Source of the DNA: Helicostylum pulchrum
Lineage: Eukaryota > Mucoromycota > Mucoromycetes > Mucorales > Mucoraceae
Assembly (NCBI GenBank): GCA_025677825.1
Contig: JAIXMO010000020.1
Location: 425,396 to 489,395 of the forward strand
Length of the DNA stretch: 64,000 bases
Direction of reading: 5' to 3'
Every line of letters begins with the position of its first letter. The first letter of the stretch is position 1. This document shows, one piece after another, positions 19,611-58,780 of the stretch. The notes under the pieces were generated by a model. The model did no database searches. It had not been told where the DNA came from and saw only the letters and a program-made list of their open reading frames with translations. The position numbers and the translations under genes were made by a program.

Positions 19611-19978
19611 GGGGGAATTCTTGACACACGGTCTCTCCATACGGTCGATCCAAAAAAGCGTCACGTATTCTACTTTTCAAAAAAAAATGATTAACTAATG
19701 TATGAAGCAAACAGTAGTATGTACGTCATGATGAATAAATAAACCTACTTTATCACCTATATTTATTCCATCAAGTCCCTTTTTCTTTTTTCTTTACCTT
19801 TATTACTTTGTTTCGTTTTTGTTTTTTCGCTTTCTTGTTTTTTTTTTTTTTTTCGTTTTTCGTTTTTTATGTTTGTCTTATACGGTTCTTCTTAGAGTAA
19901 TGGCTATCTATAAAGGTAAGTAATACGTCAGATGTTTTAATCGACTGTGTAAATTGACCGTGCATCCAGAATTTCCCC
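19611..19978. mobile_element. Inverted-repeat element, copy 1 (about 368 bp)
   Basis: The left arm 19611-19669 and right arm 19922-19978 are inverted copies. Both begin from the outside with GGGGAATTC-like bases, then a CACGGTC block, a GTCGAT block and a terminal ACGTATT. The interior has GATTAACTAATGTAT, GTAGTATGTACGTCA and a long pyrimidine tract, then ATG at 19900 and the donor AAAG|GTAAGT at 19915/19916. The whole unit matches copy 2 (45435-45817) in reverse orientation. I found no convincing target-site duplication. It could be a MITE or a conserved promoter/first-exon module of a gene family. Confidence 0.6.
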
Positions 19979-21674
19979 AATAAAAAAAGACAGAACAAGA
20001 GAGAAATTAAATTTTCTATTACCAATTATGAGTGATAACAATTAACCTGGTAAGTTTATTTTGAAGGTTTGGAATATACACACTAAAGCTATATTACATA
20101 GGGCCCACTCAGTAGAATCTTTAAGCAGCGAGAGAAAACGAAAAGAGTTAGTAATAGTCGAGTATGAACTAAATGCTATCGTCGACAAAAAGTTGCGAAA
20201 AGCGCAAAAAGAGACTGCAGTAGTAGCCGATGCGAACCCCCGGAAGAGGTATATATAAGAATTTTTGTACTGCTATTTGTTTACTTTTGCTAACTTGACA
20301 ATCTTAAAACTTTATAACTAGGTTGAAGAGCAAGATGCTATTTATGTATCTTGGTCTAGATTGCTCCTCCGTTGGTTCATGCACAAGAACGAAGCTTTTG
20401 AAGCAATGTTCGTCTTTTAAACTCTGCTGATCTCCGACGTACAAATAATAACAAGGTAAATATATTTGCCCACTTTTATAAACATACCAAGTATTGACAT
20501 GAAATACTTTTAGTCTCGACTCTGTAATTAGCTTCAATTACCCAGAAGGTCAAAGCGGGCTTTTTAACTACAACTCAATGGGGAAGTTTACGAAGCAGGC
20601 TTATCTCAAAAAAAAATACGATATTACTCAATACAGTCATATCAAGAACATACTGGGTTTATTTTTATCATGCTACAAATCTCGTAAGTCTTGGAGCTAT
20701 AACTGGAATACCTTATATCGAGAAACCAAGACCTTAAAAAAAAATTACGACGTGGAAGAAAAGGAGGAATGGGAAGAAGAAGACTTTTGTCTTTTTTTTT
20801 CCCCGTTGAATTCCTCCTGAAGCTACGCGTATATTTTCGATGGTAATGCGGACAAGTCTGAATGGGGGCCACATTTGCAAGTTGTAGTCGCCGATTATGG
20901 AGAGATTGCTCGCACGTTCTGGGCTTAGACTCATGTGGTAGGCTGCTTTACTTCGCCGCATATAGTTTATGTAATTTACTGACTATATATTATCTAAACT
21001 CTTAGGGGCGATACGATGCTTTCTTTGGATGATATAAAAGTAAAGAGCAACTTGAAGGTTGATTTGAGAATACTTCAAGATGAACCTGTTCAACGCCGCG
21101 ACCAAGAAGTCGAAAATTCTGTTTTCGAAGCTTCCAAGAGTTGTCCAAGTGTCCAAAAATTCCAATCCGATCATTGCAAGCTGATGATAGAGTGTAAAAC
21201 TATCATTGATATGTATACCGACAAGGGGTTTGACGTGGATAATGTCGATTGTATACAAATTTGCGGCTTAGAAATCTTGATTTCCAACGTTCGTCTTTCT
21301 GCTTCTGGGTTGTATACTGGAAATGAGTTATTTTATGGCTCTATCACAAATTCTCTTTCCCAGCTGGAAAAAATGATTGATATTGCATTGAATCTTCTGG
21401 ATTTTACGGTTATTTGCCCGTCAGAAGGAACTGGTAATATAAACTAACCATTATTATTTTTTAGGAGGAAGTTGTGAAATTCAAAAGTAACTACCAAGAA
21501 GAAAGAGATATCATGAGGCAAAATAATAAGAACGTTAAAGGATATAAATACAACCGAGCTCTTGATAAAACGCCAGACAATGTATCGAAGAAGGACCGGA
21601 CCAGAAGAACGTGGGTCGCTTTTCGCGATAGCAGATCTAGTCCCGCTCCTTTTACAAGTCTCACAGACTTGTAG
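19900..21674 (+). pseudogene. Decayed member of a dispersed gene family
   Basis: A start exon inside the inverted-repeat element (MAIYK then a GTAAGT donor) is followed by coding-like pieces: VWNIHTKAILHRAHS with a basic run SSERKRKE at about 20070-20250; VEEQDAIYVSWSRLLLRWFM at about 20322-20420; GKFTKQAYLKKKYD at 20578-20820; a 143-codon piece at 21016-21447 with ICGLEILISNVRLSASGLYT; and a basic tail at 21474-21674. The pieces cannot be joined by GT-AG introns without stops in my reading, so I call it a relic. I know no function for the family. Confidence 0.45.
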
Positions 21675-22002
21675 AATTTAAAAAAGGAGGTGGATTTTGT
21701 AGTCAGTTAGACTGTTTTGGACGTCCAAAGTGAAAAACTGATAGCAAGTCAGATTGTGTCCCCTTTCAAATCTTGTCGCGGGAAGAGAATGAAAACCTTT
21801 TTTAACGAATAAGCACCAAATCTTTGCTTAATTTTTTTAATTTTTTTATTTTATTTTAATAAACAAAATTAAAATATATTTTATTTAAATCTGAGAATAT
21901 TAAGTAAGCCACGTAATTGCCATAATACCTCTTGTAATTGATCCATTAAATTTTTGATTTTTGATTTTTTTTTTGTATGTTCGAAATTTATGAGGTCCAA
22001 CT
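21675..22002. other. Intergenic, no gene seen
   Basis: A T-rich spacer between the decayed gene and the tail of the DUF202 gene; AATTAAAATATATTTTATTTAA-like sequence near 21860-21890 may hold polyadenylation signals. Confidence 0.4.
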
Positions 22003-44139: not shown

Positions 44140-45060
44140 ATTTCACAATAGAAAAAAAATAAAAATAAAAATTAAATATTGTTTAATCAAAGGGATGAGC
44201 ATTTGAAACTTCTTTAGAAAAAAAATATTGTTGTAACGACCACAACTCAAGAGCTTCCAGCCGAATTCATCGTATCCGTTATCTTCTTCTTCGTATTTCT
44301 TGCCAGTACCAGCCTCGTAAGCTTCTTTCAGCTTATTTAATATGGAGGAGGGATGACCACGGAAAACAAATGAGGGGGCGACGGAAAGAGTTTTACTGAG
44401 AGGGGAGCAGTAGATGGATCTCGTCCAGTTTGTGCATTCCGTACTAGTATACTGATGTTGATTGAGTCCTAGGCTATTAACAGTACCCATTTGACAGTTA
44501 GATACCACACTTCGCATTTGTAGAGCAAGAGATTCCATATCGGATTTAACATGAAGTAAGAATTTAAGAATACCGTCTTACCCCATTGAAATCATCAGGC
44601 TTGCTAGGTAGTACGAAGTTCGTTTGTGAACTGGCCACATATAAACCGTTGCAAGCAAGATCTACAGTTGATAGGCGCGCCTCTTTCAAATTGCTTGCAA
44701 CACTTGCGACGATATTTGATATCATAGTTTGATAGTATTGCTATCAAATTTTCTACGATATCTTTGCCTTCGCTAGTAAGTTCCCCCCCCCCGTCAAATT
44801 ATGTTTTTGGGTCTTGGAGACATATTTAGCAATCTCAGCTGCAGCAAGATCTATTTCTTTTCCTTCGACGTCAACGAGGAATCAGCTGGTACGGACGAAG
44901 CAGCAGGATCAGAAGAAGAAGTGCTGTTGTTGTGAACTCGATACAGAGAGCCTTTACTGCACTATATTCAACAGTTGTTAAAGCTAAATATTGGTTCAAT
45001 TTTCGCTTTAAAGAAACGCCTTGCTGTAATATTTCCAGAACTGGGTTAGACATTCATCTT
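44140..45060 (-). pseudogene. Decayed hypothetical ORF
   Basis: Minus-strand coding-like pieces in different frames, in gene order: KRKLNQYLALTTVEYSAVKA near 45030; EGKEIDLAAAEIAKYVSKTQ at about 44865; EGKDIVENLIAILSNYDIKY with CCKQFERGAPINCRSC at about 44770-44630; then a 131-codon piece (44143-44538) with GLNQHQYTSTECTNWTRSIY and YEEEDNGYDEFGWKLL. A run of nine C at 44784-44792 sits at one frameshift. I do not recognise the family. The gene lies downstream of the minus-oriented arm of inverted-repeat copy 2, so it may once have used that promoter. Confidence 0.45.
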
Positions 45061-45189
45061 TACCAATCATTTTATGTAATGACCTTAGTCTTGAGCTGAC
45101 AAACTGCAAGTGTTGAAGTTGAACTACTAAAACGTCTAGGCCGACTTGATACATTTTCGTAACTGACACTTTGTCCCAAAGACGGGTTG

Positions 45190-45286
45190 AATTATAGGGT
45201 TCAATTCCGGAGAGGGAGCCTGAGAAATGGCTACCGCATCCAAGGAAGGCAGCAGGCGCGCAAATTACCCAATTCCGACACGGGAG
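45190..45286 (+). rRNA. Decayed fragment of 18S (SSU) rRNA
   Basis: GGTTCAATTCCGGAGAGGG, then AGCCTGAGAAATGGCTACCG, CATCCAAGGAAGGCAGCAGG and CGCGCAAATTACCCAATTCC match a highly conserved stretch of eukaryotic 18S rRNA, roughly nucleotides 370-450. Against the consensus I remember, changes include TTCGATT to TTCAATT and AAACGGC to AAATGGC, which are CpG transitions, and CCACATCC to CCGCATCC. Similarity stops abruptly on both sides, so it is an inserted non-functional fragment. A 115-codon minus frame across it is an accident. Confidence 0.85.
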
Positions 45287-45434
45287 ATATTTAGTTAAGT
45301 CTGTGGCAGACCACTTGATATAGTCTGTTTTACTCCAGTATCCTAACAAAAACAATAAAATATTTTTTTTAGCTTTTAATGTAGCCCAAACTTTCCATTA
45401 TAATTCATTATAATTACCTGCAGCATTTAGTAAA

Positions 45435-45817
45435 GGGAAGTTATCTTTGATACACGGTCAATTTACACGGTCGATTAAAAAAAGTCTGACGTATTATTTA
45501 TCTTTATAGATAACAGTTGCTATAAGAAAGAGCTGTAATAGGTTTGTATACTGAACATTAAAAAAACAAAACACGATAGCAAAAAAATAATAAAAGTAAA
45601 GAAAAAGGAAAAAAGGACTTGATAAAAAAAAATGGATGATAAAATAGGTCTATATTTACTCATCGTGACGTACATACTACAATTTACTTCATAAATACAA
45701 GTCGTTATACATTAGTTAATCATTTTTATTTTACATGTGTGATTTCTATTGTTCCAAGTTGGAAAAGTAATAAAATACGTCGACCGTGCAAATAGAACCG
45801 TGTATCAAGAATTCCCC
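45435..45817. mobile_element. Inverted-repeat element, copy 2 (about 383 bp)
   Basis: Arms 45435-45494 and 45774-45817 are inverted copies with TTGATACACGGT near each outer end and ACGTATT at each inner end. Read on the minus strand the interior aligns with copy 1 along its length: AAAAATGATTAACTAATGTAT, TAGTATGTACGTCA, ATCAAGTCC plus a pyrimidine tract. The start-codon/donor block is mutated (CTG for ATG, AAAG|ATAAAT for AAAG|GTAAGT). The minus arm points at the 18S fragment and the decayed ORF. Confidence 0.6.
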
Positions 45818-57081: not shown

Positions 57082-57489
57082 TAACACACATACAACAAAG
57101 ACCTGGCGTCCCTCTCTTTAATTCTACTTTTTTATTTTTAAATCTTAATAATACTTTACTACTAACTCAGTGAAAATCCAAACACCTCACAAATAAAAAA
57201 AACTCTTTAAACCAAGTTGCGATATTTTTACAATTTCGTTTTTTTTTATCGTTCTGTTGTGGAAAATAGCCACTTACTCGGAAATCAAGCTGCTGTTTTT
57301 TGTTCTGTATATGTTTATATGTTTCAACTAAAATTCACGTTAACATAATTACAGCATGGAACAAATAGTAAATAGACTACATTACTAAATTGACGCCCTA
57401 TTTTATCATCTTTTTTTTTCTCTTCAACTGGCGTCTTTTTTTCTTCTTCTTCACTTAGTACTTTGCTTTGTTGTCATGTTTTGCTTTAT
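57082..57489. other. Intergenic, no gene seen
   Basis: 3' UTR of the septin and a spacer. The part at 57350-57480 resembles, weakly, the interior of the inverted-repeat elements (GTAAATAGACTACATTA..., then a pyrimidine tract). Confidence 0.35.
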
Positions 57490-58780
57490 GTTTGCACAAA
57501 CCGATACGGGTTCTTCTCAGGGTAATGGTCGTTGTTAAAGGTAAGTAAAATATGGCACACTTTTTTTTTAAAATTGATTATGTAAATTGACCCGTGTATC
57601 AAGAATTTTCCTCATGCAAAAATAACGTTACCAAAGTCTGAGCGAAAGTTTCGGTACTTCAACTCTCATAAGATGGAAGACTGGAATTTCACAAAATGTA
57701 AAGAATATATTACGCAAGAGTGAAACAGATTGCCTAGTACAAAGATCCCTTTATACGGCACTTCTAAAATGTTTAGTCGAAATATCTGAGATGGATGTCT
57801 CTCAAGAAGTAAAGGGAAATGCGTTAAAAAGCATATCGGGATGCAGTAAGTTCTCAATTTTAACCTCCCTATATATATTTGGTCTTCTAACCAGTAAGTC
57901 ATACTTAGCTGGCCGGTGGTGTTGGGGAAGAGAGTTCAAGCCCTAGGTTTGAACCATTGCGTCGTGGTCAATCGTAATTTAGTGGAATATGAATTCCTTT
58001 CACGAAAAACGACCACGGCAAGCGTCTTCTAAAAGAAACAGAGATGCTTTTAAAGGATGCTTTGCCCGCAAAGAAAAAAAAAGGGGGGGGGAGGGATAGG
58101 GGTAATCCAGTACGTGACCTTATCCAAGGCTATCTGTCTTAACGACACAAACTATTCCGAAAGATACCTCGTGCTTCGTAAAAGAAGTTATCCAAAAGAC
58201 CGAAGAAAATAAGACTCTTTCAAAAACAGAACAGTTAACTTTAAATTTTATAGTGGAAATTGATATTTAACAACACTTGAATAGTCTCAGTGATCTTCTT
58301 TATCCTGAGTACAATAATGCTGTCATTCTTTCTCATATTATTAACAAATTATCTGGGTTCGGCCCTGAAGAAAGCAAAATGAAAAGAGATGATATTATAA
58401 ACGAAATAAAGTCGTCTAAAAGCATTTTGAAGAAAGAGAGAGTGACGATGATTTGAAACTTGCCAAAATGATGAAAGATGCTTTAGGAAATTTACATGAT
58501 CGTAATCTTGGGAGGTACAAGTCCTTGGAGTTTTTACTGCAAGGCACAAAAGTCAATCAAGATCACAAATTTTTGCACAGCAAATCGCAGGGTCAGTCTT
58601 TGAAAAAAGTCACTGTCGATCTTATAGAGAATCTGTGTTTACACATGGTCAACTTTATGTTGCCACTTCAGCCAAATGGAGTCTATTCAAAACTTCTAAT
58701 TTTGATTTATCAAATAAATCATATTATTCCTTTACACATCTGTTTATCTTATAATCCTTATTTTATATTACAAAACGTAT
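57490..58780 (+). pseudogene. Third, half copy of the element leading into a decayed gene with helicase relic
   Basis: Sequence 57490-57612 matches the right half of the inverted-repeat elements, including ATGGTCGTTGTTAAAG|GTAAGT at 57525-57546 and GTAAATTGACCCGTGTATCAA. A coding-like piece follows at about 57672-57850 (SQNVKNILRKSETDCLVQRS; LLKCLVEISEMDVSQEVKGN). After stops and a G run at 58083-58090, another piece starts at about 58453 (DDLKLAKMMKDALGNLHDRN). It then runs into KSQGQSLKKVTVDL and, in another frame, VFTHGQLYVATS. The last two are the C-terminal signature of PIF1/Helitron helicases, so the locus is a mosaic. Confidence 0.5.
58575..58740 (+). mobile_element. PIF1/Helitron-type helicase relic (C-terminal motifs)
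   Basis: KSQGQSLKKV and HGQLYVATS, in two frames separated by a frameshift, correspond to the consecutive family motifs 'KSQGQ(S/T)L..V' and 'HGQLYVALSR'. The arginine finger region is lost. Helitrons carry such helicases, though host PIF1 is also possible. Two hairpin-plus-CTAGT structures lie downstream. Confidence 0.55.

Follow-up and report, generated by a model that had tools for sequence, protein, structure and literature searches.

A dispersed family of terminal-inverted-repeat elements, probably MITE-like transposons, in Helicostylum pulchrum

The element at 19611-19978 and its genomic family

Examination of the window (the whole 64-kb stretch of DNA analysed) and of the 32.2-Mb genome that holds it (168 contigs) reveals that the segment at 19611-19978 on the plus strand belongs to a sequence family that is dispersed in the Helicostylum pulchrum genome, has defined ends and has no one shared neighbour gene. 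In all probability this segment, here the lead copy, whose limits follow from the genome copies and a family profile, represents an old, non-autonomous DNA transposon family with terminal inverted repeats (TIRs), MITE-like and perhaps derived from Mutator. We infer transposition by a transposase supplied from elsewhere: it would bind to the arms, excise the element and insert it, often into intergenic DNA near the 5' ends of genes; a short target duplication of about 8 bp would accompany insertion as a family trait, and many copies would since have decayed or lost one end. The apparent promoter-exon cassette thus proves to belong to a family with some hundred known loci, at which the idea of an exon trap can be examined in parallel.

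The left terminal inverted repeat of the lead copy occupies 19611-19669 (plus strand) and the right one 19922-19978 (minus strand), both delimited by a terminal-repeat profile together with an alignment of the arms, in which 43 of 59 positions are identical and two one-base gaps occur. The score of this pair (50) exceeds the best found among 3000 random window pairs of the same spacing (46; 0/3000 as high), and the terminal-repeat profile, which counts the lead copy among its seeds, detects both arms with E ~2e-15. The family profile, seeded with the lead copy itself, matches 19613-19977 (E 2.6e-87). The arm pair is absent from the output of a general repeat finder for the 64-kb window, probably because of the indels in the arms. 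The facing arms described in the initial annotation, with an ATG, five codons and an AAAG|GTAAGT junction between them, are therefore real. Three of the blocks that it had listed as common to the arms (CACGGTC, GTCGAT and ACGTATT) are indeed found once per arm in identical order; the fourth, GGGGAATTC, is exact in the left arm (at 19612) but reads GGGGAAATTC in the right arm.

Between the arms lies a pyrimidine-rich interior (19776-19870, plus strand), which is common to other copies in the alignment and, as originally described, stands upstream of the start codon. The ATG begins at 19900 and with five codons constitutes ATGGCTATCTATAAAG (19900-19915, plus strand); it is followed by the donor-like hexamer GTAAGT (19916-19921, plus strand). 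Given that this hexamer abuts the inner edge of the right arm, which starts at 19922, the arm would fall within a first intron, in agreement with the earlier proposal. A minus-strand ORF does have its start codon (19564) 47 bp away from the left arm, but the "BRE-like" label attached to that ORF is unconfirmed, since Pfam returned no family for the pieces of it that were tried. One minus-strand ORF extends 17 bp into the left arm, and no ORF of at least 70 aa is contained within 19611-19978.

Five genome searches, with loci merged within 800 bp, recovered at least 98 distinct loci on at least 46 contigs; as four of these searches contributed the best 40 of 133, 146, 43 and 106 candidates, the true number is probably above 98. 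Applied to 66 sequences, the terminal-repeat profile recognized 96 ends, with 26 facing end pairs listed (L031 appears twice, L064 runs off its locus and some ends are weak), and in 18 facing pairs the match at each end stops no more than 4 positions short of the terminus. Among the 21 long-flank copies outside the window, the match in 17 reaches at least position 361 of the 368-base query; intact copies are 304-567 bp long, with arms of about 60 bp.

MITEs are short elements present in many copies near genes, which have terminal inverted repeats and no coding capacity. The present element resembles them in its small size, its terminal inverted repeats, its many dispersed copies with mostly unrelated flanks, its proximity to genes and, as judged from the lead copy, the lack of a transposase or other coding capacity. 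It differs from them in that its target duplications are mostly eroded or absent, in its many one-ended copies and in the donor-like hexamer beside one arm. The one-ended copies (L010, L011, L015, L050, L056 and others) have variable inner breakpoints on either side, and some keep the left end alone. Simple cut-and-paste gives no explanation for them, which counts against the MITE-like reading.

The window contains two further copies. The second (45446-45817, minus strand) has both ends recognizable by the profile, and the third (57354-57611, plus strand) lacks its left part and retains both the ATG and GTAAGT. A fragment of small-subunit rRNA (45043-45289; Rfam RF02542, 53.6 bits) follows the right end of the second copy at a distance of about 150 bp, and a similar rRNA-like trace at the protein level was noticed by eye in L026.

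Flanking sequences and target sites

In 20 loci examined with flanks of about 4 kb at either side, the element ends adjoin unrelated sequence, save for other repeats and neighbouring copies, and no flank of the other copies matches the window flanks at E 1e-4. By blastp (E 1e-5), no common family unites the ORFs that neighbour 23 copies and L082; shared groups of flanking ORFs were seen for L022 with L026, for L015 with L027 and for the two overlapping L026 copies. Thus the alignment of genomic matches, which had been suggested as a check, points to a dispersed element with defined ends and mostly differing flanks rather than to the 5' end of one gene family. Flank comparisons revealed no downstream repeat that travels with the element.

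Target duplications were sought by comparing the 8 bases outside the ends of 19 intact-end pairs, taking the best result over 36 boundary offsets. Four of the 19 match at 7 or 8 positions: L057 has an exact 8-base duplication (AGAAAGAA, 8/8), L052 also scores 8/8 but in poly-T, and L073 and L021 score 7/8. Mismatched control pairs reach 7/8 in 2.9% of cases and 8/8 never. The remaining 15 pairs score only 2-6 of 8, with the lead copy at 2, and across 18 intact pairs none of 160 combinations of duplication length and offset is clearly favoured (best z 2.3). Such duplications, which the initial annotation had proposed to look for, are thus evident in a few copies; no clear length emerges across the family, and the lead copy shows none. 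In L021 the element sits after the fourth codon of an ORF, following ATGGTTAAACCT, with TAAACCT repeated on its far side; joining the flanks restores one frame (MVKPILNEG...), and the frame through the element hits a stop.

Downstream of the lead copy, a gene-like remnant of approximate limits (20046-21674, plus strand) includes an ORF at 21016-21447 that matches 11 proteins, from Mucorales where the source is named, has no Pfam family and has one paralogue in the genome (on C136). A Helicostylum pulchrum record that is 99% identical to this ORF, possibly of strain KT1b to judge by its tag, begins inside it at MLSLDDIKVK, without the codons of the element. Splicing to a candidate AAAG acceptor that ends at 20088 would place an open exon of 160 bases in frame after the five codons. 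The 1.9 kb that follow the lead copy have no second match in the genome except for the one paralogue and a short repeat. The latter is an interspersed repeat of about 105 bp (21634-21738) with matches at 8 other places over 59-105 bases (79-95% identity) and 4 shorter ones. About 200 bp upstream of the paralogue is a weak relic of the element (L091, 1549-1780), with an E of 1.4e-5 and a large composition bias.

The start codon, the donor-like hexamer and neighbouring genes

The right ends were compared over 62 sequences, namely those of 93 aligned rows (left arms included) that have letters at the codon position, with the other 31 left out. The start-codon position reads ATG in 21, ACG in 20, ACA in 8 and other triplets in 13, which fits CpG decay, and a neighbouring CpG reads ACG in 32, ATG in 13 and ACA in 5 of the 62. 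In the sequence class that includes the window copy ACG is commonest (11/24, with ATG in 3/24), and the ATG of the window copy would most simply have arisen from an ancestral ACG by a C-to-T change. ATG outnumbers ACG (18 to 9) in the other class, of 38 right ends, so that one lineage may have had ATG as its founding state. The 28-base string of the window occurs once in the genome, and another 10 sites differ from it at one to three positions; ATG is present in 3 of these 11.

The GTAAGT beside the right arm belongs to the family sequence: GT is present in 51/62 right ends, the full hexamer in 41/62, and the hexamer together with ATG in 16/62. Of the proposal that the element carries its own start codon and 5' splice site, the donor hexamer thus survives as a family feature, but the start codon is not fixed. 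The hexamer columns have a mean conservation of 0.937 versus 0.871 for all columns, and 19 of 109 six-column windows, the donor's own among them, are conserved at least as well. Conservation among copies mostly reflects recent common descent, and that of the donor is therefore no proof of its use; the resemblance to a splice donor is probably incidental.

The orientation of neighbouring genes was scored from the nearest ORF of at least 100 aa, these being open reading frames taken without a gene check, in 24 long-flank copies: 21 from 20 loci (L026 has two), which are the top matches of one query and hence not a random sample, and the three in the window. The nearest downstream ORF is in sense orientation in 21/24 copies, and the nearest upstream ORF is antisense in 16/23. 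Given that random intergenic places have a sense downstream ORF in about 62% of cases, the probability of this excess is about 0.006-0.007. One of the 21 sense ORFs, beside the second window copy, is the rRNA fragment, and without that copy the count is 20/23 (P ~0.009-0.010). A stronger excess, calculated against one half (P 0.0003), was weakened by the measured background. Element orientation alone can be assessed only within tandem regions, where 6 sense versus 2 antisense cases are not significant (P 0.29). The excess instead comes mainly from divergent intergenic sites (14 vs 1), a kind that random sampling also yields most often; they account for 14/23 copies versus 36-42% at random (P 0.012 and 0.052), or 13/22 without the rRNA-fragment copy (P 0.021 and 0.079).

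Pfam gave no clear family for the neighbouring ORFs, and three that were searched have relatives in Mucorales where the source is named. By eye, degenerate gene-like ORFs follow the first and the third copy in the window. In L018 an acceptor-like stretch (CTCTCTTTTCTCTTCCAAG) follows the element, with a start codon about 45 bp further on at which 3 of 6 relatives fetched also begin. In L082 a left-end-only copy (560-1230) runs straight into the gene EDC94DRAFT_671047, with a MULE fragment just beyond it.

Some of these features could be accommodated by a first-exon trap, in which an outward promoter in the pyrimidine-rich interior and the donor would let an inserted element start transcripts of the downstream gene; splicing would remove its own right arm and join a short leader, coding if ATG is present, to the first acceptor of that gene. 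The frequency of the donor GT, the higher conservation of its columns, the excess of sense downstream ORFs, the acceptor and shared start codon at L018, and the in-frame acceptor ending at 20088 are in keeping with this. Against it, many other windows of the alignment are as conserved as the donor, the tandem copies are without significant orientation, and the excess lies mainly at divergent sites. Moreover, ATG is found in only a third of right ends, the donor is broken in the second window copy (ATAAAT) and in L021 (ATATGT), and the H. pulchrum record that matches the downstream ORF starts without the element. We therefore regard such a trap as unlikely; the corresponding general notion, that the right end of a fungal MITE might be a portable outward promoter with a leader exon and donor, to which some copies would add five codons, is similarly doubtful. 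If copies do supply leader exons, the family would clearly exemplify how a small fungal DNA transposon can spread the 5' ends of genes; if not, its description is routine annotation of an old repeat.

Two other readings are far less probable. The segment might represent a promoter and first exon conserved in a single ordinary gene family, its inverted repeat being due to chance, a reading that the initial annotation had itself named as its refutation. The degenerate ORFs after the first and third window copies, the Mucorales relatives of three neighbouring ORFs and the relic upstream of the paralogue would suit it, but the ORFs that adjoin 23 copies do not belong to one family, both ends are near-complete in 18 pairs, left-end-only copies exist and L021 interrupts an ORF. 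These observations contradict it, and we reject it as having very little chance of being correct. Alternatively, the conserved block might serve inward reading on the opposite strand, where it would supply a branch point together with a 3' splice site (TACTTACCTTTATAG). Read in reverse complement, the donor region does resemble such a combination, and by eye an ATG follows the acceptor on that strand in many copies, but the interior of the lead copy lacks any ORF of at least 70 aa, and this too seems highly improbable.

Superfamily affinities and related transposons

Our best guess for the superfamily of the MITE-like element is Mutator-like, since duplications of 8 bases and terminal repeats some 60 bp long would suit such elements. 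PMC6446971 gives a range of 8-11 bp for MULE target-site duplications, which embraces the apparent 8-bp duplication here, and the length of the arms is likewise within what is seen in MULEs; for the MULE-Mucorales group it gives a 10-bp duplication and a 40-bp TIR, in contrast to about 8 bp and about 60 bp in the present family.

The genome has 20 matches to the MULE domain (PF10551). Among 12 MULE loci fetched, L082 and L085 contain the terminal repeat and L088 a weak version of it; no autonomous partner with both ends was recognized among them. A MULE-bearing element on C108 ends in the terminal repeat of the family, but the 9.4 kb preceding that end yielded no left end. It shares about 4.9 kb with a MULE on C138 (97.7% identity), which has a weak remnant of the terminal repeat at the same place; a relative on C94 is without the repeat. 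The stretch common to the three MULE copies stops inside or before the terminal repeat. At the 3' end of the C108 MULE, matches on C138 and C115 cover 1-125 of 171 bases, and those on C32, C94 (two) and C132, also from base 1, stop at 98-107. In one MULE group the genome also encodes a SWIM-type second ORF (L085, L086, L088, L089); an upstream ORF resembles TnpB/Fanzor proteins by motif only, and Pfam provided no confirmation of this.

Pack-type elements are TIR elements that capture genes. The truncated ends of the present element likewise adjoin unrelated sequence, but unlike in Pack-type elements no facing end lies at 0.9-4 kb without a nearer partner in the 20 long loci. No capture of a host gene between distant ends was seen among the terminal-repeat profile matches.

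A literature search for the Helicostylum pulchrum genome and transposable elements found nothing, one for MITEs with splice donors and first exons gave, by title, none on fungi, and the word MITE is absent from the main text of a paper on Mucor genomes (PMC7011435). The family may already carry a name in RepBase.

A distinct kind of transposon is also conspicuous in this genome. The IS1595-type transposase domain (PF12762) has 25 matches on C9, C20, C21, C28, C37, C42 and other contigs, 12 of which have the same score and an open frame of 302 aa, a uniformity that suggests a recent burst.
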